The position numbers and the translations under genes were made by a program. Of a DNA stretch of 64,000 bases, positions 6,033-63,366 are shown one piece after another. The notes below the pieces were generated by a model. That model was not told the origin of the DNA. It saw only the letters and a list, made by a program, of their open reading frames with translations, and searched no databases. The stretch comes from Patescibacteria group bacterium (GTDB lineage Bacteria > Patescibacteriota > Minisyncoccia > Moranbacterales > GWC2-37-73), in contig JAKLIP010000002.1 of NCBI GenBank assembly GCA_022709545.1, positions 1-64,000 of the forward strand, in the 5' to 3' direction. The first letter of the stretch is position 1. Every line of letters begins with the position of its first letter.

Positions 6033-6058
6033 TTTTTTAGTCGGTTTTTTTAATGAAT

Positions 6059-6194
6059 TAAAAAACTGCCAGTTTTCGCTGGCAGAAAAACACAAAGCTC
6101 CCCACCAGCGATGTCCTTGCGGACACCCATATCCCTTTCGAGACATGACCGACTAAAGTGCTCTGGATGGAGAGCTTAATACACTTTAGTCGGT
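6059..6194 (-). ncRNA. Candidate structured leader or small RNA ending in an intrinsic terminator
   Basis: On the minus strand, in order: a 13-bp inverted repeat (6182-6194 with 6148-6160) enclosing a second hairpin (GCTCT/AGAGC), a short TGTCC/GGACA hairpin near 6110-6123, and a perfect stem CTGCCAG-CGAAAA-CTGGCAG followed by TTTTTT (6059-6084). The TM2 gene starts 27 bp later. This is either an attenuator-type 5' leader of that gene or a free small RNA of about 135 nt. TTTAGTCGG occurs both in the inverted repeat and again at 6037-6045. I see no strong promoter; positions 6195-6349 otherwise hold no gene. Confidence 0.45.
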
Positions 6195-6349
6195 TTTCAT
6201 ACCATACCTTGCGATTTTACTCACAAGGGTTAGGCATTTAATTGTTGATTTTATTATTACATTTATATCGGCGAAAATCAACCCGTCCATCCTGTCTCTC
6301 CATCCATTAACTTATCGGTTTTCTTTTTTTAGTTTTCAAAGAACTCCGG

Positions 6350-7201
6350 TCAATCTATCTGGGACAGCTTCACTTCCTTCGCCAGCTGATTTTTAGTGAG
6401 ATGCATATATCTTTCCGTCGTAGCAATAGATTTATGTCCGAGCAAAATCTGAGTCGCCCGGAGACTCGCCCCTTTTTCCAAAAGCCTCACACAATAGCTG
6501 TGACGAAGGCTATGGACTGATATTCCTTTTCTTGCTACTCCGGCTTTTTCCAAATACTTCTGAAGCATCAAAGAAACCCTCCTCGCAGTCATTCTTTTCC
6601 CCAGACTGCTTTTGATCAGCGGTTCATTTGGTTTTTTGCCCTTCATAAATACTTTCAATAATTTGGCTAGTCTTTTGTTAATCGGCACAACCTGTTCCAC
6701 ATTGCCTTTCCGCCTAATACGGATGGTTTTGTTTTCCAAATTGATGTCGTTGAGGCTTATATTGGTCAATTCACTGAGTCGAAAGCCTGTCTCGGCTAAA
6801 ATCCTAACTGCCACCTCGTTTCTTGGTTGAAACTTGGACTCATCCTTTTCCACCGCGCCAATCAATTTCCTGACTTCTAATTCTGAAAGATAACTTGGCT
6901 CACGGCTGATTACTTTGGGCATCGGCAGATTTTTCATCGGATTATCTCTGATGATATTTTCGTCTTCCAAGAATCTGAAGAAATTTCGCAGGGTCGTTTG
7001 TTTCAATCTTTTGGTAATCGGCTGATTGGCTAACGAAAAGAGGAAGGCTCGGATGTCTTTCCTCTTTGTCGCCCTAATTGAACCGCTCTTTCCTAAATAA
7101 TCACGAAACTCATGCAGATTGTTTTTGTAGACCCTGACCGTGTGCTCGCTTAAGCACCGCTCCAGTTTCAGGTAATCCAAATAGTCTTTGATATGATCCA
7201 T
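6350..7201 (-). CDS. XerC/D-type tyrosine recombinase (first of three)
   Basis: A 283-residue protein with the N-terminal SAM-like core-binding domain (1-85) and a catalytic domain holding the full set R141 (GFRLSEL), K165, H230-x-x-R233 (HSLRH), H256 (LGHKS) and the nucleophile Y265 (TERYMHL). It cuts and rejoins DNA at short repeats through a 3'-phosphotyrosine. It could be the host Xer protein or the integrase of the phage-like block to its right. No matching direct repeats were found next to it. The small size and XerD-like linker favour a general Xer enzyme. Confidence 0.85.
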   Translation of the reverse strand: MDHIKDYLDYLKLERCLSEHTVRVYKNNLHEFRDYLGKSGSIRATKRKDIRAFLFSLANQPITKRLKQTTLRNFFRFLEDENIIRDNPMKNLPMPKVISREPSYLSELEVRKLIGAVEKDESKFQPRNEVAVRILAETGFRLSELTNISLNDINLENKTIRIRRKGNVEQVVPINKRLAKLLKVFMKGKKPNEPLIKSSLGKRMTARRVSLMLQKYLEKAGVARKGISVHSLRHSYCVRLLEKGASLRATQILLGHKSIATTERYMHLTKNQLAKEVKLSQID

Positions 7202-16454: not shown

Positions 16455-17405
16455 TCATCCCTTTGGAAAAAACTTAGCCTGCTCTTCCTTAAGCATTCCT
16501 TTTGGCACAATATTAATATCAATTTCCTGATTTATCCCAAAATTATCTCCATCTTTTTCCACAATTGTCTTTTGCCTATACACCCCCGCGACTCCCACTC
16601 TTTTAAATATCTTTGAGTTTATTGTGGTTGCTATCTGATGATCATGTAGAACCTTCGCGCCATATTTACTTTTATCGACAATCTCATGTAGCTTCTTGAT
16701 ATAATTATCGCCTGCTTGTTTTTTCTTGGCTAAAAATTTAACTTTATTGCGAAAGTCGTTATTAAAAACCAACCACAATGACTCGTCCCTAAGTCCCGGG
16801 TTTCTTGTGACGATTATGATGGAACTGATGTCTTTCAGTCCATCCTTTTCCAAAATTGAATCATTATTGCTTTTCTTAAAATCCATAACCGAATAACTGC
16901 CAGTTGATTCTGCTTTATCATCCAGTTTTCCCAAGAGATAATTATGAATTCTATTCGCGTAAGGCACGTAGCGCGCTATATCCAGATTGTCGCTCAATGT
17001 TGAATTTGAATATCCGGAATAAACCGAACTTATTTTATCCCAAGCTCCCCAAATTGAAGTTTCCGTTTCCTCTTTTATTTTTTTATCCAGCTCGGCCAAC
17101 TTCGGATGAGACTGAGAATAGAGCACTTTATCCGCGAGAGAAATATCATCAACCGTCTCTGATGATCCCGTCATGTCAAGGTATTCTTTTTTGGCAATCC
17201 TTGTTTCACTGTCAACTGTTTTCTCCAGACTATCTTTTTCGGCCAAAAGTGCCTCCTTGGATTTTTGTATTTCTGAAATAATTTCCTTAGATTTTTCATC
17301 AGCTAAAATGAATCTGATATAATCGGCCAACCCAATTAAAAAGGATTGGTTATCTTTTTGGGCTATGAAGCTATCGTAGTATTTTTGGAGTATATTTACT
17401 TTCAT
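16455..17405 (-). CDS. Hypothetical protein adjoining the direct repeat
   Basis: I start at MKVNILQKYY (17405, 316 aa). An outer ATG at 17423 would begin inside the 16-bp direct repeat. The first 80 residues are helical, and 40-100 are charged and probably coiled. The C-terminal half is strand-rich (DISSIIIVTRNPGLRDESLW and later IDINIVPKGML). No membrane segment and no known motif are visible. It has its own terminator. It is the first gene outside the 4.3-kb repeat-flanked unit, so it belongs either to the neighbouring phage-like element or to the old host flank. Confidence 0.55.
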   Translation of the reverse strand: MKVNILQKYYDSFIAQKDNQSFLIGLADYIRFILADEKSKEIISEIQKSKEALLAEKDSLEKTVDSETRIAKKEYLDMTGSSETVDDISLADKVLYSQSHPKLAELDKKIKEETETSIWGAWDKISSVYSGYSNSTLSDNLDIARYVPYANRIHNYLLGKLDDKAESTGSYSVMDFKKSNNDSILEKDGLKDISSIIIVTRNPGLRDESLWLVFNNDFRNKVKFLAKKKQAGDNYIKKLHEIVDKSKYGAKVLHDHQIATTINSKIFKRVGVAGVYRQKTIVEKDGDNFGINQEIDINIVPKGMLKEEQAKFFPKG

Positions 17406-17422
17406 ATAATCCAATTCTACCA

Positions 17423-17438
17423 CAAAATCTCCCTAGAA
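17423..17438. repeat. Probable attachment-site repeat, distal copy
   Basis: The 16-bp sequence CAAAATCTCCCTAGAA occurs here and again at 21705-21720, where it runs into the 3' end of the 16S rRNA gene. The integrase gene ends 9 bp to the right, the usual position of an integrase relative to its att site. Outside the 16 bp the two copies share TACCA one or two bases further left, with an indel. Confidence 0.72.
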
Positions 17439-17446
17439 TCACAGGC

Positions 17447-18331
17447 TTAATACACCAGAAATGTCTGGTGCGCTTGTTTCACCTTTTGCTTGTCAGCCAG
17501 TGAAATATAGTAATCAATCGAAGTTTGAAGCCGACTATGGCCGAGGATTTCCTTGATAAAGATAGCTGAGCAGTTATTCATCGCCATTGTTGTTGCGGCC
17601 GTGTGCCGGCAAATGTGTGGGGTGACCTTTTTAGAAATACCAGCCAGAAGCCGTTGCCTTTTGAAATATCGACTTAAATCTTGATTCGCCAGTCTTCGCG
17701 GTTTTTCGCCGGTGGTTATAAAAAGAGCCGGAAACTTATCGTTCCGGCTCTTCAGATATTTGTCTATCCAGTAAAGCGATTCGTCATTAAAATACAGAAC
17801 TCGTTGCTTTCCACCTTTGCCAATTATTCGCGCTTCTTTTTCAATCAGTGAAATAGAGTCTCTGTTGAGATTTAAACACTCTGAGATGCGACAGGCCGTC
17901 CCCAGAAGCACCTCAAGCAGCGTCCTGAAGCGAAGACCACAGATCGTGTTAATATTGATACTGTTTCTAAATCGGTTGATTTCATCGACTGTCAGATAAA
18001 CCACTTCTTTCTTTTTGCGTTTTGGGATGGTTATCGTGCTGGGATCAATCTGAAGAGGAATTTTCAGCAGGTCTCTGGAGTAGAGCAATAATCCCTTGAT
18101 GGATGCCATTACCACGCCAGTGAACACCTCAGAATTTTCTCGTTCATAAAGGATGGATTTTAATCTGAAAATGTGTTCAGCGGTAATATTTCCTATTTCA
18201 ATATCCCCAATATCTCGCACAATGCATTTCAGTCGTGACCTGTATGAAATTATTGAACTCTGTGCGAATCGTCTTTCAACCTGCAACCAGCTCAGAAATT
18301 CTTCAGTGGTATTTTTTATTGTTTTTTCCAT
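17447..18331 (-). CDS. Tyrosine integrase of the 4.3-kb element (third recombinase)
   Basis: The 294-residue protein has GTACRISECLNL (catalytic Arg), IGKGGKQR (Lys), PHICRHTAATT (H-x-x-R), LGHSRLQTS (His) and IDYY (Tyr): a complete active site. Its stop lies 9 bp from the 16-bp repeat that matches the end of the 16S gene, so it is the natural candidate for inserting this unit there. Its start overlaps the end of the small gene upstream by 16 bp. It differs clearly in sequence from the other two recombinases, as expected for independent elements. Confidence 0.88.
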   Translation of the reverse strand: MEKTIKNTTEEFLSWLQVERRFAQSSIISYRSRLKCIVRDIGDIEIGNITAEHIFRLKSILYERENSEVFTGVVMASIKGLLLYSRDLLKIPLQIDPSTITIPKRKKKEVVYLTVDEINRFRNSININTICGLRFRTLLEVLLGTACRISECLNLNRDSISLIEKEARIIGKGGKQRVLYFNDESLYWIDKYLKSRNDKFPALFITTGEKPRRLANQDLSRYFKRQRLLAGISKKVTPHICRHTAATTMAMNNCSAIFIKEILGHSRLQTSIDYYISLADKQKVKQAHQTFLVY

Positions 18332-54750: not shown

Positions 54751-56151
54751 TTAAATAGTCTTCTTTTGCTTTGCAATTTTAATTCCAGCCTCGGAAAGTT
54801 GTTTTTCATCTAATTCACTTGGGGATCCCATCATTAAGTCCTTAGCTTCACCATCCTTAGGAAAAGCAATGACTTCCCTGATATTCGGTTCGTTTTGCAA
54901 TATCATAACCAAGCGATCAAGCCCGGCTGCCATTCCACCATGTGGCGGAGCACCAAAAGTAAAGGCCTCTAGCATATGCCCGAAACGTAATTGTATATCT
55001 TCTTCTTTTAATCCTAAAATTTCAAAAATCTTGTGCTGTAATTCTTTGGAATGAATTCTGACACTGCCACCACCAATTTCATATCCATTTAGGACAATAT
55101 CGTAAGCTTTAGCACGAGCTTCGAGTGGTTTCTTTTCAAGCAATTCAATATCTTCATCAAGTGGCGCCGTGAAAGGGTGATGTGAAGATCCGATTTCTCC
55201 TTCATCATTTTTTTCAAACATAGGGAAATCAACCACCCAACAAAAGGCTAGCTCATTAGGATCATTTTTATCATTTCGCATATCTGGCTTATCATTCCCA
55301 TATCTTTCTATAGATTCTTTATAGGTAATAACAGGAAAAGGAATCCGCTTGATTTTTTTCTCTGGATAAATTTCTTTTACCAGCGCAATCATGCATTCTT
55401 CATAAATATGCATGATTTCCTGCTGGGTAGAAAAACTTATTTCAACATCAAGCTGTGTAAATTCCGGCTGACGATCGCCACGCTGATCTTCATCACGGAA
55501 ACATTTTGCTATTTGAAAATACTTTTCAATTCCAGAAATCATCAATAGCTGCTTGAACTGCTGTGGTGATTGCGGAAGCACATAAAAATTGCCCTTATGA
55601 ATACGCGATGGAACAATATATTCACGCGAACCTTCAGGCGTTCCCTTGGTCAAAATAGGAGTTTCAACTTCTATAAATCCTGTTTGGGAATAAAAGTTCC
55701 TGATAAAATTAATGATCTTGCTCCGCATTAAAATATTGTTCCTCATTCTTTCTGTGCGCAAATCAAGATAGCGATATTTTAACCTTATATCTTCATGTAC
55801 TTCAGCAGTGCTTTTTGTCAGTTCAAAAGATGGAGTTTTCGATTCATTAAGAATATTTATAGCAGTTACTTCTAATTCAACTCCTCCTGTTGGAGATTTT
55901 TCATTCCTGGCACTCATTGGCCTTTCTTTTACAACGCCCTTCATCTCAATCACAAATTCACTGCGAAGTTTTTTGGCTGTATCACAAACTTTAACATAAT
56001 CCGGAATCACAACTGTCTGGAGAATTCCGCTGGAATCGCGCAGATCTATGAAAATAATTTTTCCATGATCGCGACGCACATGAACCCAGCCGGCAAGTTT
56101 AACTTCTTGTCCGATAAATTTTGGCGTTTCAATTATATTAATTCTTTGCAT
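54751..56151 (-). CDS. aspS: Aspartyl-tRNA synthetase lacking the bacterial insertion domain
   Basis: The 466-residue class II enzyme has an N-terminal OB anticodon domain (LAGWVHVRRDHGKIIFIDLR, 18-95), motif 2 (FQIAKCFRDEDQRGDRQPEF, then TQLDVE) and motif 3 GGMAAGLDRLVM. Bacterial-type enzymes are about 590 residues because of a GAD domain inserted between motifs 2 and 3. Here, the segment from ERYGNDKPDMRN to NELAFCWVVDFPMFE joins directly, so this domain is absent. It charges tRNA-Asp, perhaps also tRNA-Asn. Confidence 0.93.
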   Translation of the reverse strand: MQRINIIETPKFIGQEVKLAGWVHVRRDHGKIIFIDLRDSSGILQTVVIPDYVKVCDTAKKLRSEFVIEMKGVVKERPMSARNEKSPTGGVELEVTAINILNESKTPSFELTKSTAEVHEDIRLKYRYLDLRTERMRNNILMRSKIINFIRNFYSQTGFIEVETPILTKGTPEGSREYIVPSRIHKGNFYVLPQSPQQFKQLLMISGIEKYFQIAKCFRDEDQRGDRQPEFTQLDVEISFSTQQEIMHIYEECMIALVKEIYPEKKIKRIPFPVITYKESIERYGNDKPDMRNDKNDPNELAFCWVVDFPMFEKNDEGEIGSSHHPFTAPLDEDIELLEKKPLEARAKAYDIVLNGYEIGGGSVRIHSKELQHKIFEILGLKEEDIQLRFGHMLEAFTFGAPPHGGMAAGLDRLVMILQNEPNIREVIAFPKDGEAKDLMMGSPSELDEKQLSEAGIKIAKQKKTI

Positions 56152-56162
56152 AAAATTATTTT

Positions 56163-56960
56163 TTATTTCAATAATTCAGCCACTCTTCTTGAAATATCAC
56201 TGGGAACAATTTTCGTTTTCTCATAAAAATCTGTAATACCCATGTCTTCTACCATTTTTTTGTTTTCATCAGATACAGATGCAGAAAGCACGATAAGCGG
56301 AATATCTTTTGTTTTGTCATCCATTTTTATGCGATGAATTATTTCGTCTCCGCCCATGGCCGGCATTACCATATCAGTTATGATCAAATCATATTCATTT
56401 TCGGCTGCCATCCGGCTTCCCCATGCTCCATTTTGAGCATATTCAACTGTATACCCATCATCTTCCAGTTTTTTCCCGAACATCTCGAGAAAAATTTTTT
56501 CATCCTCTATGAATAATATCCTTTTGTTTTTACTGGCACTGTTTTTTCCTTTCCCGTTGATGCGTTCTTTATTTTTTTTTTGCTCTCCGTATTTATTTAA
56601 AATCTTGAGAATTTCTTGGGCTAATTGTGACGGGGTAAATTCAGTTTTGCCAATAAAGCCTTCTGCGCCATTATTTTTTGTTTCTTCTTCATATTCAGAC
56701 TTGTCGAGATTGCTAAAAATGAAAACTTTCAGGTCAGGATTGTAGTTACCGCTCATCTTAAGCTCTTTTAAAACGTCCATGCCGCTCATTTCAGGAAGCA
56801 CCATATCCAAAAGTACAAGGTCATAATCGCTTTCTGCCGCAAATTTCAAGACCTCTTTACCAGTGGTTGCATTGACAACTTCCAGTCCGACCGATTCGAA
56901 CTTTTTTTTGTATATTTCAACAATCATCGGATCATCTTCAACAAGGAGTATTTTTGACAT
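56163..56960 (-). CDS. Tandem receiver-domain response regulator
   Basis: I start at MSKILLVEDD (56960, 265 aa). It has two CheY-like receiver domains: residues 1-120 (LLVEDDPMIV, LVLLDMVLPEMSG with the phospho-acceptor Asp, IFSN) and 145-262 (ILFIEDEKIF, LIITDMVMPAMGG, IVLSAS). A charged linker (EQKKNKERINGKGKNSASKN) joins them. No DNA-binding output domain, so it may act by protein contact or as a phosphorelay. It lies 110 bp downstream of the histidine kinase gene, which is its likely partner. Confidence 0.9.
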   Translation of the reverse strand: MSKILLVEDDPMIVEIYKKKFESVGLEVVNATTGKEVLKFAAESDYDLVLLDMVLPEMSGMDVLKELKMSGNYNPDLKVFIFSNLDKSEYEEETKNNGAEGFIGKTEFTPSQLAQEILKILNKYGEQKKNKERINGKGKNSASKNKRILFIEDEKIFLEMFGKKLEDDGYTVEYAQNGAWGSRMAAENEYDLIITDMVMPAMGGDEIIHRIKMDDKTKDIPLIVLSASVSDENKKMVEDMGITDFYEKTKIVPSDISRRVAELLK

Positions 56961-57067
56961 ATTTTTGTTTGAAAATAAAAAATTTAAGACATTCTTATTG
57001 TACCTAAAATAAGACAAAATAGCAACCTTATGGTTGCTATTTTGAAGTCTTGATATTTTATATATAT

Positions 57068-58783
57068 TTAACTGTTTATCGGTATTTCAATCATAAATCT
57101 GCTTCCCATTCCTGGCCCATCCGATTCTACCCAAACTGCCCCATGGTGGGCTTCGGCAATAGCCTTGCCGACATAAAGACCCAGTCCAGTACCACTGACA
57201 TGTAAACGCGACACATCTTTGCCTCGTGAGAATTTCCTGAAAAGAAAATGTATTTCTTCCTTAGGTATTCCTATCCCCGTGTCAGAAACTGTGATCCTGA
57301 CAACTTTTCCATACGACGATTTTTCTTCGGTTTTGACAAACCCCCTGTCATCTATGATCACGCCTTCATCTCTAATTTCTGCGCTTATGGTTACTCCCCC
57401 TTTTTCTGTATATTTCAAGGCATTGTCAATAAAATTAGAAACTAATTCACGCACCTTATTAAAATCCATTTTAAATTCAGGTATCGGATCCTTTGGCAGT
57501 TTTAAATCAAGATAAAACTTCTTTGATTTGGCAAGAATCAGGAAGTTTTCATAAAGGTCACTCAACATTTTACCTATATTGGCATTTTCAAATGAAAATG
57601 TCATTCTGCCTGATTCAATACGTGAAACATTCAACAGGTCTTCAATGAGATTGGCAAGGTTTTCACTGGAAACATATATTTTTTCAATGGCCCCGCGTAT
57701 CGTATTGCTCATTTCACCATATGATCCCTCCATAAGAAGCGATGAAAATCCCTTGATGGCTGTAACAGGAGTCCTAAGCTGATGAGAAGCAATAGAAATA
57801 AATTCAGTCTTGGCATTGTCCAAAACTCTTAATTGATCGTTTGCTTCAGCTAAACTATCGGCCATTTTTTGCAACATTTCTTTACGCTCCACTTCAAGTT
57901 TTACTGAACGAATAAGTGCTATGCCAATTCCGCCTACCAATACAAGTGTTATTCCTGTTAAAACTATGCTTGCTGTGTTTTTTATAAATAAAAATTGCGA
58001 ACCAATAAGAATAATCAATCCTATAACTAGAGCTTGTGCACCAATAAGTTTAATATTAAATGCTTTATATTTAACGATAATATAAGCAAGAAAACCCATA
58101 AATATTGGCATACCGAAATATCCATATTGAGAAGATACCCAATCAGAAGTAAAACTACCAATGATATTACCAGAAGAAAAAGTTAAAAGAAAAATGGAAA
58201 TACCAATTGCAAAATATATAATTTTATTTTTTTCTTTATAATCATTTGATGTTCTGTATCTTATTATTGATAATATTATTATCCAGAAAGAAGAAATTAT
58301 TTCCAAAAAATAAGTATAATAGAGTGCAAGTGGACCTTCAATAGCATCACAAGTAGCTACATTGACTCCCAATAAATTAAATTTTGTTGGAACAAGCACT
58401 ATAAGCGGCAATAGCAATAAAAATAATATACCCTTTTTTAAAAAAGAAATATCTTTTTTGTATATAAAAACATAAGTTAAATATAAACTAAGGATATAAA
58501 TGAGTGGCTCTATTAATATTGTCAGAGACCAAAAAAATATAACACTTCTACTTTCTACTGTCGCGAATAACACTAAAGCAAAAAATCCCCAAATAAAAAA
58601 CGCTATTGAAACTAAAAAGAGTAGTTTAGAATCCAATTCATTTTTTCTTTTATATAAAACAAAAAAACCTAAAAGCAAAGAAATCAGCATCCCAGGTATT
58701 AATGCATAATACAAAATAAACGGCACATCACTAGATAATATTAAAAAATTTGGATATTCGCCTGGACACAAAATGTTGCTCAT
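57068..58783 (-). CDS. Membrane sensor histidine kinase
   Basis: The 571-residue protein has eight or nine membrane helices in the first 300 residues (a sensor resembling 7TM or MASE-like modules), a short coiled coil, HisKA with the phospho-acceptor H334 (IASHQLRTPVTAIKGF), and a HATPase domain with VSNFIDNALKYTEKGG (N box), SDTGIGIP (G1) and GTGLGLYVGKAI (G2). It is complete. Its ATG overlaps the TGA of the SET-domain gene (ATGA), so it is coupled with it; the receiver protein follows. Confidence 0.93.
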   Translation of the reverse strand: MSNILCPGEYPNFLILSSDVPFILYYALIPGMLISLLLGFFVLYKRKNELDSKLLFLVSIAFFIWGFFALVLFATVESRSVIFFWSLTILIEPLIYILSLYLTYVFIYKKDISFLKKGILFLLLLPLIVLVPTKFNLLGVNVATCDAIEGPLALYYTYFLEIISSFWIIILSIIRYRTSNDYKEKNKIIYFAIGISIFLLTFSSGNIIGSFTSDWVSSQYGYFGMPIFMGFLAYIIVKYKAFNIKLIGAQALVIGLIILIGSQFLFIKNTASIVLTGITLVLVGGIGIALIRSVKLEVERKEMLQKMADSLAEANDQLRVLDNAKTEFISIASHQLRTPVTAIKGFSSLLMEGSYGEMSNTIRGAIEKIYVSSENLANLIEDLLNVSRIESGRMTFSFENANIGKMLSDLYENFLILAKSKKFYLDLKLPKDPIPEFKMDFNKVRELVSNFIDNALKYTEKGGVTISAEIRDEGVIIDDRGFVKTEEKSSYGKVVRITVSDTGIGIPKEEIHFLFRKFSRGKDVSRLHVSGTGLGLYVGKAIAEAHHGAVWVESDGPGMGSRFMIEIPINS

Positions 58784-59322
58784 TTTTGTTTTTTATTTAT
58801 TTTTTTAATTTCTTCCTCAATGAAAGGAACAAAATATCCTTTATACTTATTCTGCAACCTAGGTATTTTCCAATCATCCTCTGTCACGATTTTCCTACAA
58901 GTACTTTTTCCACATTCACATTTTATTTTCCACGGCTTTGTTCCTTTCACGTGATAATGCGCTTGTGCATAATCGAACGTAATTTCTTCATCTTTTTTTA
59001 TTTTTCTCATCGAAACCAATGTTAACTGACCTTTATTACCAGCATTCGGTTCACAACTATGATTAAATTTATAATTATCTTCTAATAGATCAAAGTTTTT
59101 TGGTCCAATATAAAAAAATTTTTCAACTTGATAAAAATAGTCCTGTAATTTTATAGGTAACCTTTCACATTCTTCTGAAGTAAGAATAAAACCACCCGAA
59201 ATAGCAATTATTTCTCCTTTTTTTATGTCTTCTCTCGCAAAAATTCCATCTCCTTTATTTGCAGTTTTTCTTGTCTCTACTTTTGGACTAATCCAAGAAA
59301 AAGTTCTTCTATTTTTTTTCAT
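58780..59322 (-). CDS. SET-domain protein lysine methyltransferase with post-SET cluster
   Basis: The 180-residue protein is almost only a SET domain: GDGIFAREDIKKGEIIA (25-41), the SAM/Lys site NHSCEPNAG (87-95), EEITFDYAQ (112-120) and a post-SET zinc cluster with C135, C137 and C142 (CECGKSTC). The cysteine in NHSC probably completes the zinc site. Such enzymes methylate lysine, in eukaryotes mostly on histones and in bacteria on little-known targets. It is coupled with the deoxyhypusine-synthase-like gene (14-bp overlap) and with the histidine kinase gene. Confidence 0.88.
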   Translation of the reverse strand: MKKNRRTFSWISPKVETRKTANKGDGIFAREDIKKGEIIAISGGFILTSEECERLPIKLQDYFYQVEKFFYIGPKNFDLLEDNYKFNHSCEPNAGNKGQLTLVSMRKIKKDEEITFDYAQAHYHVKGTKPWKIKCECGKSTCRKIVTEDDWKIPRLQNKYKGYFVPFIEEEIKKINKKQK

Positions 59323-60358
59323 TTTCTGACTTTAAAAATAAATTTGATAATTTTTTATCTTCTCTTCCTTTCCAATTGCCTTTATGATAAGCATAACTAG
59401 CAATCAATGGAAAAGCTAATGTTGCTTCGGCGTAAACCATTTGTTCATTGTCCAATTCGACTTTTCCCCATGTTCGAGCTTCTTTGAATGTAGAACTTGA
59501 ACATCCTCCATCTCTAACATCAGCTACGGTAATTTGAATAGCATACTTGTGCCTTGGCATAAACTTTCCTGAATATTCAGTACAAACAACAACATCTTGT
59601 AAGAAATTTTTAGGAGTACCTCCACCTATAATAACTACTCCCGTTTCTTTAGTATTCATTTTAAGTTTAGCTAATTCCCTAAAATCTCTCACTGAATCTA
59701 TAGTAAGATGATTTTTTAAATTTTCTGTCTGATGTTTCACTAATCCAAATCCGGCAGCACAATCAGAGAAGGCTGGGCAAAATATAGGAATATTTTTCTT
59801 GAAGGCCCACTGAATTAATGAGTCTTTTTTCTTAGCTATATTTGGGTTATTTTCTAAGAATCTACCCATTTCCCAAATAAATTCCCTTGAAGAATAAGGT
59901 CTTTTTTCTAAATTATCTGCTATCTCTGCTATAACAAAACCGCATTTTTCGAGTTCTTTATCATCTGTATATGTATCATATATTCTATCAATACCTAGTT
60001 CTCCCAGTTCAGCATTGTCAACATCTACATCTCCTTTGTAATGTTTGTATCCTAGTGCCTCAAAAAAATCCATATCAACAACACTTGCTCCGGTAGCTAC
60101 TATTGCATCAACCATATTATTTTTAACCATATCAACGTAAACTTGCATACAACCTGCTGCGCTAGTGCTCCCAGATAAAGCTAAAATAACCGTACAATCT
60201 TTATCATAAAGCATTTTGTCATATAATTCAGCTGATCTAGCAAGGTCTCTAGCAGAAAAAGACATGCTTTTCATTGCTTCAACAATTTTTGTTGTATCTA
60301 TTTCCTTTATATCGATATGTTTTATTGTCTCTTTCAAAAAATCTTTTCTATTCTTCAT
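59309..60358 (-). CDS. Deoxyhypusine synthase-like enzyme
   Basis: The 349-residue protein is homologous to deoxyhypusine synthase along its length: LALSGSTSAAGCMQVYVDMV (NAD/spermidine region), VATGASVVDMDFFEALGYKH, FCPAFSDCAAGFG and, near the end, the active-site motif ARTWGKVE with the catalytic lysine at about 299. DHS transfers an aminobutyl group from spermidine to a lysine of eIF5A. eIF5A does not exist in bacteria, so the substrate is unknown; some bacterial relatives use other amines (homospermidine synthase-like). It is the first gene of an operon with the SET enzyme and the kinase. Confidence 0.88.
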   Translation of the reverse strand: MKNRKDFLKETIKHIDIKEIDTTKIVEAMKSMSFSARDLARSAELYDKMLYDKDCTVILALSGSTSAAGCMQVYVDMVKNNMVDAIVATGASVVDMDFFEALGYKHYKGDVDVDNAELGELGIDRIYDTYTDDKELEKCGFVIAEIADNLEKRPYSSREFIWEMGRFLENNPNIAKKKDSLIQWAFKKNIPIFCPAFSDCAAGFGLVKHQTENLKNHLTIDSVRDFRELAKLKMNTKETGVVIIGGGTPKNFLQDVVVCTEYSGKFMPRHKYAIQITVADVRDGGCSSSTFKEARTWGKVELDNEQMVYAEATLAFPLIASYAYHKGNWKGREDKKLSNLFLKSENEKK

Positions 60359-60423
60359 TTGCTTATTTGATTTAAAAAAATTTTACTTTTTGATTTAATG
60401 TTTCAATTAATTCAATATTTATA

Positions 60424-60452
60424 ATTATATAAAAATAATATTAATTTAGCAA
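60424..60452 (-). promoter_or_regulatory. Promoter of the DHS-SET-kinase operon
   Basis: -35 TTGCTA at 60447-60452, 17-bp spacer, perfect -10 TATAAT at 60424-60429, about 65 bp ahead of the start codon. Confidence 0.6.
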
Positions 60453-60458
60453 CCAAAT

Positions 60459-60493
60459 AAAAAAGGGTTCGAGATAAGATTATCAAGAACCCT
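60459..60493 (-). terminator. Terminator after the membrane protein gene
   Basis: AGGGTTC-(TTGATAATCTTATCTC)-GAACCCT followed by TTTTTTATT on the minus strand. It overlaps the last base of the stop codon and lies just before the DHS promoter. Confidence 0.7.
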
Positions 60494-61212
60494 CATTTTA
60501 AAACATCATAGCCAAGATTAAAAATCTTGACTAATAATAATATTCTAATTGCAGAAAAGAACATTACAGCTAATACTTTTTTCATAGTAGTGTTCAATTC
60601 GCGATTGAAGAACATAGTTGCAACCTCCGAGCCATCCCAGAGGCTGAATTTTATTAAGCTGTAGCCTAAAAAAATTCCTCCAGCTTGTTTATTAATTTCA
60701 TATAAAGCATCAAAAGATCTTCTATATGCTGCCATCAGAATGAAATCATCAACAATATTTTGGCTAATAAAAATAAAAGTTAAAGCCACTAAAACATCAA
60801 GTGCCCACGCAACTAAAAACATTGTATTCCATGAGCAATTATAATACTTTAGTGCCCCTATTGTTGAAACTATAATAATTTCAACACCCCAATCTGACAA
60901 AAAATAAGCTACCCATTTAGTTGCAGTCTTTGTTGTTTTAGCCGCAATTTGTCTTTTACTTTCTTTTTCTTTTATTTCCAGGTAGGCAAATACGACAACT
61001 TTCAGTACTGACCATGCGCCATAAATTGTTGCCTGCCCATATTCCAGCCAAAAACCCCAACCATTTGAAAATATCGCTGTTATTAAACAACCAGCAAAAA
61101 GTTTCAAATAATGACCCGCTTCGGTTTCTGGATGAAAAATCCAGATAACAAGTAAAATCTGAAAAACAACAAATGCCGCGAGAGTCGCGGCCAATCTTGC
61201 TAACCGCTTCAT
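60493..61212 (-). CDS. Multi-pass membrane protein of unknown function
   Basis: I start at the ATG (61212, 239 aa), 7 bp after a strong AGGAGG; a GTG one codon earlier is also in frame. Five or six membrane helices are predicted (about 8-28, 34-55, 60-80, 95-120, 125-150, 195-220). The loop KEKESKRQIAAKTTKTATKW is charged. No family recognised. It has a near-consensus promoter and a terminator of its own, so it is a separate unit from the methyltransferase and radical SAM genes upstream. Confidence 0.7.
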   Translation of the reverse strand: MKRLARLAATLAAFVVFQILLVIWIFHPETEAGHYLKLFAGCLITAIFSNGWGFWLEYGQATIYGAWSVLKVVVFAYLEIKEKESKRQIAAKTTKTATKWVAYFLSDWGVEIIIVSTIGALKYYNCSWNTMFLVAWALDVLVALTFIFISQNIVDDFILMAAYRRSFDALYEINKQAGGIFLGYSLIKFSLWDGSEVATMFFNRELNTTMKKVLAVMFFSAIRILLLVKIFNLGYDVLK

Positions 61213-61248
61213 CACGACACCTCCTATGATTTTTTAAATTACTGTTCT

Positions 61249-61414: not shown

Positions 61415-62023
61415 CTAGCATTTACGTGCAATTATCTCCACTATACCATGAATATGTTTTTCTTCTTTGCCTGGATGACCTTTGTCTACAACTATACCTT
61501 CCGAATAATGCAGACACTCAAAGTCTCTAAACATATTCGCAAGCTCTCCTTGTTTAAAGTGGTATTTGATTGATCTTTTTTTTGTTTTATTTGAAGGATC
61601 TTTATTGGTAAAAGAAGAAATTATTATTATTCCATTTTTTTTTATTTTATTCTTAACCCTGTTTATTAATTTTATAATATTTCTTTTATCCAAAAATTGT
61701 AAGACATTGAGGCAGACTACAAAATCGTAATAGTTAGAAGCTATATCATAATTGGAAATATCTGCCTGTATAACTTCTATATTCTTACTATCTTGTTCAG
61801 AAATTCTCTCTTTTATTTGTTTAACAGCAATATTTGATAAGTCAACCGCTGTCATTTTAAAATTCTTACTCGCAAAATAAAAAATGTTCTGTCCTTGACC
61901 GCAACCCAAATCGAGACCCCTGCTATCTGGTTTTATATATCTCAAGGCCTTTTTAACAAACGAATTGGTATTTTCACTTTGAGAAGTTTTATTCTTTTTA
62001 TATACTTTATCAAAAATAAACAT
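61415..62023 (-). CDS. Class I SAM-dependent methyltransferase
   Basis: I start at MFIFDKVYKK (62023, 202 aa). The longer frame would begin inside the large hairpin upstream. It has motif I LDLGCGQGQNIFYFAS (about 38-53), an acidic residue in AVDLSN, and FVVCLNVLQFLDKRN (motif for strand 4). It resembles TehB/UbiE-like small-molecule or peptide methylases. The C-terminus has HYSEGIVVDKGHPGKEEKHI. It lies after the Cys-rich peptide gene and could tailor its product, but may be independent. Confidence 0.8.
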   Translation of the reverse strand: MFIFDKVYKKNKTSQSENTNSFVKKALRYIKPDSRGLDLGCGQGQNIFYFASKNFKMTAVDLSNIAVKQIKERISEQDSKNIEVIQADISNYDIASNYYDFVVCLNVLQFLDKRNIIKLINRVKNKIKKNGIIIISSFTNKDPSNKTKKRSIKYHFKQGELANMFRDFECLHYSEGIVVDKGHPGKEEKHIHGIVEIIARKC

Positions 62024-62047
62024 ACTTAATATTTTAATAAATTTTTT

Positions 62048-62077
62048 GGAGGGTGGCAATATTTACTGCCACCCTCC
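62048..62077 (-). repeat. Large perfect stem-loop between peptide gene and methyltransferase
   Basis: GGAGGGTGGCA-GTAAATAT-TGCCACCCTCC, an 11-bp GC-rich stem. It is followed by A's, not T's, on the minus strand, so it is more likely a processing or stabilising hairpin after the peptide gene than a standard terminator. Confidence 0.55.
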
Positions 62078-62319: not shown

Positions 62320-63366
62320 TCATTTATGACAATGCAACAAGCATTGGGGATCATGTTTAAAATCACTGCCAGTTGCAACATACGCAACCGCTCTGCATCC
62401 CCGACAGTATTTCAAAAGTTTACACTCTCGACATCCTTCAATTTCCTCAACTCTTCGATACTTTTCCATTTTTGGATTATCAACAAAATGATAAAGGAAA
62501 TTGCTTTGTGGACTCCATTTTCCTATGGTACTGCCTGGATGTCGCCTGCATGCCATCAATGTTTTGTCTGGCAACATCGTCATAGTAGACGATCCCATTC
62601 CACATCCCCCACTAACAACGCCCTGTTCAATACCAAGGGAATCCTGCCGACAAATAGAAATAAGCGGTTCTTTTCTGAGCTGTTTATATCCTTTCTTCTC
62701 ATATTGCAGATGCTCTTCCAAAATTTTCTTTATAAATCGCATGTACTCGTTAGCTGGAATACCACAATCCCCCTGATTCGGAACCCAGCGAGCAAACATC
62801 CAGTGCTGAGCGCCATTTTCATAAACGGCTTTCATGACATCAAACATTTCTCGAAAGTTGTGTGCAGAAAGAGTGGACATGATATATGCTGGTATTCCTG
62901 CTTTAGAAAGATCCCTAATAGCTTGCATGGTTCTTTGAAAACTGCCTTTGTATCTGATTTCATCATGCTTTTTTTCCATACCATCTATAGATAGTTGGAA
63001 ATGCTTTAGGTTAAGCTTCGCCAACATTGAAATATTTCTTTCATCGAGAAGTTCTGGGTTTCCTAGAATGCTAACACAACTAAATTTGGTCAAAGATTGA
63101 GAGGCTGCCTTAACTTTAGCCAAAATGTCCCAAAAATGATTATGAAGCATCGGATCACCGCCTGTCAGTGCAATAACTGGTAGAGCATCGAATGCGTCGC
63201 AACACTCTATAAAATCACCTATAATTGCATCAGCATCGTCCAATCTCACGTCCTCTCCTTGGTGCGCATGCTGGTAGCAATGTTTGCATCCATTATTGCA
63301 TTTGTTGGTCAAATGCCATTGAAGATAAATTCGATTTTTTTTTTCAGGGCATTCTTCTTTCATCAT
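62320..63366 (-). CDS. Radical SAM/SPASM peptide-modifying enzyme
   Basis: The 348-residue protein has the cluster motif CNNGCKHC (C23, C27, C30), GGDPML for SAM binding (about 69-74) and, in the C-terminal third, a SPASM-type set of cysteines (VSGGCGMG; later CRECKLLKYCRGC and PQCLLHC). SPASM domains bind extra 4Fe-4S clusters and are typical of enzymes that crosslink peptides (thioether sactipeptide/ranthipeptide maturases) or modify proteins. The Cys-rich 46-residue peptide gene lies 80 bp downstream. RBS GGAGG is 7 bp ahead of the start. Confidence 0.88.
   Translation of the reverse strand: MMKEECPEKKNRIYLQWHLTNKCNNGCKHCYQHAHQGEDVRLDDADAIIGDFIECCDAFDALPVIALTGGDPMLHNHFWDILAKVKAASQSLTKFSCVSILGNPELLDERNISMLAKLNLKHFQLSIDGMEKKHDEIRYKGSFQRTMQAIRDLSKAGIPAYIMSTLSAHNFREMFDVMKAVYENGAQHWMFARWVPNQGDCGIPANEYMRFIKKILEEHLQYEKKGYKQLRKEPLISICRQDSLGIEQGVVSGGCGMGSSTMTMLPDKTLMACRRHPGSTIGKWSPQSNFLYHFVDNPKMEKYRRVEEIEGCRECKLLKYCRGCRAVAYVATGSDFKHDPQCLLHCHK

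Follow-up and report, generated by a model that had tools for sequence, protein, structure and literature searches.

The genome of a tiny, uncultured member of the Patescibacteria carries, in one row of overlapping genes, a homologue of deoxyhypusine synthase (DHS), a stand-alone SET-domain methyltransferase and a membrane sensor histidine kinase, which raises the question of what ties two such enzymes to a phospho-signalling pair. The first-pass annotation had suggested that both enzymes could modify lysine, by aminobutylation and methylation, on one protein such as a translation factor. The question has some weight, as Patescibacteria are numerous and poorly understood, and few of their signalling systems are known.

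Layout of the locus and the DHS-like enzyme

We analyzed a window of 64,000 nucleotides, meaning the whole stretch of DNA under study, from a genome of 1.02 Mb (G000; 98% completeness, 9.6% contamination). Its ORF map places the DHS-like, SET, sensor kinase and tandem receiver genes, four in all, on the minus strand, with aspS next:

59309..60358, minus strand: DHS-like gene (349 aa; PF01916, 1e-93; NF002699, 529.7 bits, cut-off 500; Phe204, Glu293, Lys299)
58780..59322, minus strand: stand-alone SET-domain methyltransferase gene (180 aa; PF00856, 8e-16; NHSCxPN, EITFDY and post-SET cysteines; from alignment and PDB matches)
57068..58783, minus strand: membrane sensor histidine kinase, a 7TM-type sensor followed by HisKA and HATPase_c (571 aa; HisKA 4e-16, HATPase 4e-22)
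56163..56960, minus strand: tandem receiver protein without output domain (two receivers, 3e-40; adjoins aspS here and in relatives)
60424..60452, minus strand: sigma-70-like promoter candidate, TTGCTA-17-TATAAT (10/12 matches)
about 60459..60494, minus strand: terminator-like inverted repeat and T run at the end of the upstream gene (GGGTTC...GAACCC-TTTTTT; read by eye)
60493..61215, minus strand: upstream gene for a small membrane protein without Pfam match (some relatives have weak homologues of it upstream of their kinase)

The coordinates confirm the overlaps described earlier, of 14 bp between the DHS-like and SET genes and 4 bp between SET and kinase, with the tandem receiver following; the receiver ORF runs over 56163-57017 from a TTG, its start being more likely the ATG at about 56960. 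Pfam confirmed all domains of the four proteins, with scores far above chance. The perfect TATAAT that had been offered as a promoter does lie in a site at 60452-60424, but 2.6 sites of the TTGCTA-17-TATAAT type are expected by chance in so AT-rich a region, so that we rejected it as proof of a promoter and consider a promoter ahead of the DHS-like gene plausible only. The terminator-like repeat just upstream, missed by the terminator scan because its loop is too long, suggests that the DHS-like gene opens a new transcript, the small membrane protein gene being likely on a separate one. Gene order and overlaps thus support the proposal that the DHS-like gene, SET and the two-component pair form one transcript-like unit.

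The DHS-like protein exceeds the curated cut-off of the caldomycin synthase model NF002699, as do those of relatives (L161, L275, L017 and L215), and falls below the cut-offs of all DHS and homospermidine models, including those for deoxyhypusine synthase (TIGR00321, 226 against 304; NF002006, 277 against 434; NF002630, 217 against 364). In CdmS numbering, the protein has Phe204 and Cys286 where human DHS has Asp243 and Asp316, and the catalytic Lys299 and the substrate-binding Glu293 are retained under the same numbers as in CdmS; an alignment of 97 homologues shows no variation in Lys, Trp and Glu, with Phe prevailing at position 204 and Cys at position 286. In experiments, CdmS of Thermus thermophilus (TTHA1570) turns two agmatines into caldomycin, leaving putrescine and spermidine unused, and its modelled site has Phe204 and Leu286 in place of human Asp243 and Asp316, with Glu293 and Lys299 kept (PMC10981699).

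The genome offers a putative source of agmatine at another locus, a pyruvoyl arginine decarboxylase (PvlArgDC, PF01862; C1:145997, E 6.5e-61), which by its sequence can supply agmatine from there. Contamination is unlikely to be the source of this gene, since the HIT protein adjoining it resembles HIT proteins of the relatives' clusters. In the window's genome, 98% complete, eIF5A (PF01287) gave no match, three control archaea being positive; neither did arginase-fold enzymes, that is, agmatinase or ureohydrolase (PF00491), and SpeD and agmatine deiminase were likewise not found there. Judged by scores and residues, the protein is a member of the caldomycin synthase group, predicted to join agmatine with agmatine into a free polyamine. 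From these family traits, the PvlArgDC and the lack of matches to eIF5A, SpeD, arginase-fold enzymes and agmatine deiminase, the predicted product is caldomycin, a free guanidino-polyamine. A ureohydrolase is the pathway partner that finishes homospermidine and does not define caldomycin synthase, which works without it; with agmatinase not found in this genome, the pathway may stop at caldomycin, a product lacking free amine ends.

The label "deoxyhypusine-synthase-like" is therefore correct for the fold family and misleading for function. We rejected protein aminobutylation on the model scores, the lost Asp243 and Asp316 and the absence of an eIF5A match, and with it the first half of the proposal of one lysine-bearing protein as the target of both DHS and SET. 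This corrects an easy misreading, as a DHS-family gene in a genome of this kind does not by itself imply hypusine-like protein modification.

Gene neighbourhoods of the sensor kinase

Homologues of the DHS-like gene are present in just 12 of 76 near genomes, and the close homologues sit in polyamine clusters. Beyond the order, a phylum sample of 380 genomes, searched from SET and independently from DHS, yielded SET in polyamine clusters of other classes (the last three lines below):

L168: SpeD-CdmS-agmatinase-kinase
L161: SpeD-CdmS-SET-kinase
L169: SpeD-CdmS-class I methyltransferase-kinase
L275: SpeD-CdmS-EamA-SET-kinase
L017: SpeD-EamA-CdmS-agmatinase-SET-kinase-receiver, with overlapping genes
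L215: SpeD-like-CdmS-EamA-SET-agmatinase, SET and agmatinase overlapping, with a kinase of another sensor type encoded on the other strand
L218: PLP arginine decarboxylase-DHS-like-agmatinase-SET-EamA-7TM kinase
L240: SET (6048-6544) between the DHS-like gene and agmatinase, split into pieces by a frameshift (either real decay or an assembly error)

The CdmS-SET-kinase arrangement thus recurs in other genera, and SET is kept beside the DHS-like gene in relatives (L161, L275, L017), which is what the first-pass annotation had required of neighbourhoods to escape refutation. Within this taxonomic order of Patescibacteria, the 7TM sensor kinase is the constant part of these neighbourhoods. In 15 of the 18 genomes having both, a SpeD-type decarboxylase is at most 7 kb away from it, with 0.39 expected at random placement (p = 3e-23, a value that ignores common descent and so shows linkage, not independent events), and an EamA-type transporter occurs in the same cluster in relatives. 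The gene directly before the kinase varies, being SET, a PrmA-like class I methyltransferase, a GARS-like ATP-grasp protein, an acetyltransferase, agmatinase, SpeD or a family that we call X251. A quick kinase tree tracks host families, along which the label of the preceding gene switches at least 19 times, and the surrounding proS, receiver and aspS are conserved regardless of that gene.

Some of these partners deserve a description of their own. X251 is a family of about 250-300 aa with an invariant F-H-H, often directly upstream of the 7TM kinase (L157:10763-11518, L167:5956-6699, L174:6992-7864, L185:7339-8259, L278:6584-7420 and others, by alignment), for which Pfam and PDB gave no match. 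At about 430 aa, the GARS-like ATP-grasp protein is also often found upstream of the kinase (L186:5828-7120, L184:7407-8699, L181:9256-10554), and the PrmA-like methyltransferase alternates with SET (L169:1708-2565, L164:7224-8060, L175:5918-6754, L181:8405-9250). The L169 methyltransferase has the motif MEMLTTGMIDE, whose two Glu have the spacing of the double-E loop known from arginine methyltransferases; such a motif would suit a guanidino substrate. The tandem receiver lies directly beside aspS in many relatives, whatever the kinase's neighbours (window 54751-56960; L160, L164, L179, L186, L189, L201).

The wider sample sets the scope of these associations. CdmS, SpeD, EamA and a kinase stand together at four loci of one family (G222, G241, G375, G450). 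Besides the window, SET is found at 3 of 40 DHS loci in the phylum, most DHS loci having none, and in a survey of CdmS neighbourhoods outside Patescibacteria, covering 80 loci from many phyla, SET or the 7TM kinase is confined to the Patescibacteria. We found no report of SET with a sensor kinase in Patescibacteria in the literature searched.

The kinase has seven or more predicted membrane helices ahead of HisKA and HATPase, and scores 20.1 bits against HisKA_7TM (PF16927) over the full domain, under the cut-off of 28.6, relatives scoring 20-28. HisKA, HATPase_c and the receiver are all present, as in a two-component system, with a receiver that lacks an output domain. Its sensor part, of 302 residues, has homologues in 41 of the 76 near genomes; the AlphaFold model is a helical bundle (pLDDT 60), with which a fold search returned generic 7TM proteins only and no E under 0.001.

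How tightly SET is linked to this kinase was seen in an order-wide profile search, in which 17 of 18 SETs above 140 bits are followed by the 7TM kinase, directly or after one intervening gene, and none of 14 lower-scoring SETs lies beside this kinase; as the cut was set after the scores were seen and the profile consists mostly of kinase-linked SETs, this contrast is somewhat flattering. The six linked SETs that were new in a later scan, and served as a test, are cleaner evidence (G486, G497, G500, G499, G502, G489). On the SET tree, where a script labelled the kinase of row L226 as 7TM although it has another sensor type, kinase-linked SETs fall into about four groups split by well supported branches, which suggests that SET was recruited repeatedly beside the kinase, losses being the alternative. 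Pairs also occur in G006, G009 and G063, in which searches for CdmS, SpeD and arginase-fold genes found none, so that SET would there be independent of this pathway.

The window's own genome holds a second SET-kinase pair on contig C12 (L156:6326-8674 and 17028-17636), its SET 51% identical, near an EamA-like protein and a near-copy of the window's TehB-like methyltransferase (61415-62059); this region looks like a diverged duplicate. Elsewhere in the window, 62320-63366 encodes a radical SAM/SPASM protein nearest to TIGR04340 of the ACGX system (225 bits, under the cut-off of 400).

The role of SET and competing explanations

By PF00856 and alignment, the SET protein has all catalytic residues, SAM motifs and post-SET cysteines, and its best PDB matches are MLL-type protein-lysine methyltransferases; an AlphaFold model built from two sequences (pLDDT 38) was unusable. 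BurB, a stand-alone bacterial SET protein, methylates free methionine and belongs to a biosynthetic operon (PMC12542666). A single-sequence search with SET aligned only residues 87-147, in its C-terminal part, with BurB (E 0.04), and the SET family profile matched BurB over positions 84-150 (8.8e-15). On its sequence a lysine methyltransferase is possible, and by analogy either a polyamine, with BurB as precedent, or a signalling protein is a possible substrate. A polyamine would be chemically reasonable because agmatine, putrescine and homospermidine share the aminobutyl end of the lysine side chain.

Tentatively, we favor reading the operon as a polyamine-linked sensory cassette, in which polyamine synthesis by CdmS is joined to a selected SET-7TM kinase pair and receiver signalling, a reading for which the protein families, gene order, overlaps and the recurrence of SET-kinase and SpeD-kinase linkage can be read from the DNA. 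Agmatine from the distant PvlArgDC would, by what is known of the family, be turned into polyamine by the DHS-like enzyme. SET, or the enzymes that take its slot, would then tailor an amine metabolite made by the cell, and the 7TM kinase would monitor that metabolite or the membrane state and pass phosphate to the receiver protein; we infer these last steps. In relatives, enzymes that modify amines fill the slot before the kinase: SET, another methyltransferase, an ATP-grasp ligase, an acetyltransferase or agmatinase. Because SET shares this slot with the others, we slightly favor tailoring over methylation of the kinase or another protein. Against the cassette stand the SET-kinase pairs of G006, G009 and G063, the limitation of the BurB match to the SET tail in the single-sequence search, a kinase ligand that is still only putative, the agmatinase not found in this genome, and the fact that genes can keep their order by descent even where no function requires it. 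A more specific version, in which SET N-methylates agmatine, caldomycin or homospermidine and the cluster makes, exports and senses the tailored guanidino-polyamine through the kinase, appears doubtful; if true, Patescibacteria would have a signalling system built on polyamines, in which the tailoring enzymes can be exchanged.

It is quite possible, instead, that SET is a protein-lysine methyltransferase of the kinase's signalling route, acting on kinase, receiver or a downstream target as a lysine version of CheR adaptation, with the polyamine genes co-operonic since both serve envelope or growth control. The PDB matches point this way, the gene overlaps suggest coupled translation, and SET-kinase is the most constant pair, occurring also in genomes where CdmS, SpeD and arginase genes were not found. 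However, no lysine is specific to kinases with SET compared with those without (the largest difference, 0.32, lies within the range of other residues), on which ground we rejected the kinase itself as the methylated protein, and a kinase-modifying role leaves the ATP-grasp, acetyltransferase and agmatinase genes of the same slot unexplained. That the neighbors are functionally unrelated, with an ancestral order of SpeD, kinase, receiver and aspS and a permissive site before the kinase where accessory enzymes land, would fit a kinase tree that follows host families while the preceding gene keeps changing and proS, receiver and aspS stay constant. We think it unlikely, as distant SETs turn up time and again in this very position, on this strand and with overlaps, and recur in polyamine clusters of other classes; CdmS, EamA and a kinase of different sensor type are joined in other clusters, and random insertion would not favor one family so strongly. 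The original model of aminobutylation and methylation of one translation factor can still point to the DHS fold, the conserved catalytic Lys and Trp and the intact SET residues, but scores on the wrong side of every relevant cut-off, the lost aspartates, the missing eIF5A match and the agmatine-pathway genes in the relatives' equivalent clusters make it very improbable.

Comparison with known systems

In this reinterpretation the operon combines polyamine synthesis with a recurrent pair of SET and sensor kinase, all parts belonging to known families. For the combination of CdmS, SET and sensor kinase we found no match in the literature searched, and the SET-kinase pairing, recurrent in many relatives, seems to be a new polyamine-linked signalling unit. 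If true, a kinase that repeatedly gains SET next to polyamine synthesis would connect methylation, polyamines and phospho-signalling in a new way, and stand-alone SET proteins of bacteria would gain a role that can be tested.

The window's enzyme resembles T. thermophilus CdmS in its family score, in Lys299, Glu293 and Phe204 and in having an agmatine source in the genome; it differs in Cys at position 286 (Leu in CdmS), in an operon shared with SET and a kinase, and in a genome where no ureohydrolase was found and homospermidine may not form. Clusters of speDA-speY-speB for homospermidine are known from candidate phyla and DPANN archaea (PMC10407285), and the window's relatives likewise combine SpeD, a DHS homologue and agmatinase. 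Unlike those clusters, the window's genome has neither SpeD nor SpeB and carries PvlArgDC at another locus instead; a text search of PMC10407285 gave no mention of an EamA transporter, SET or sensor kinase. The kinase shares with 7TM sensor histidine kinases (PF16927) the predicted helices before HisKA/HATPase, and departs from them in a score under the Pfam cut-off, a receiver partner without output domain and a gene paired with SET. The SET protein is like MLL/KMT2A-type enzymes in its top PDB sequence matches, NHSCxPN, catalytic Tyr and post-SET zinc cysteines, and unlike them in being bacterial and without recognition domains beyond SET and post-SET. From the methionine S-methyltransferase BurB it differs in the C-terminal extent of the match, the pairing with a sensor kinase and a substrate that may be another; the two are alike as stand-alone bacterial SET proteins of similar size in small-molecule biosynthetic operons (PMC12542666).
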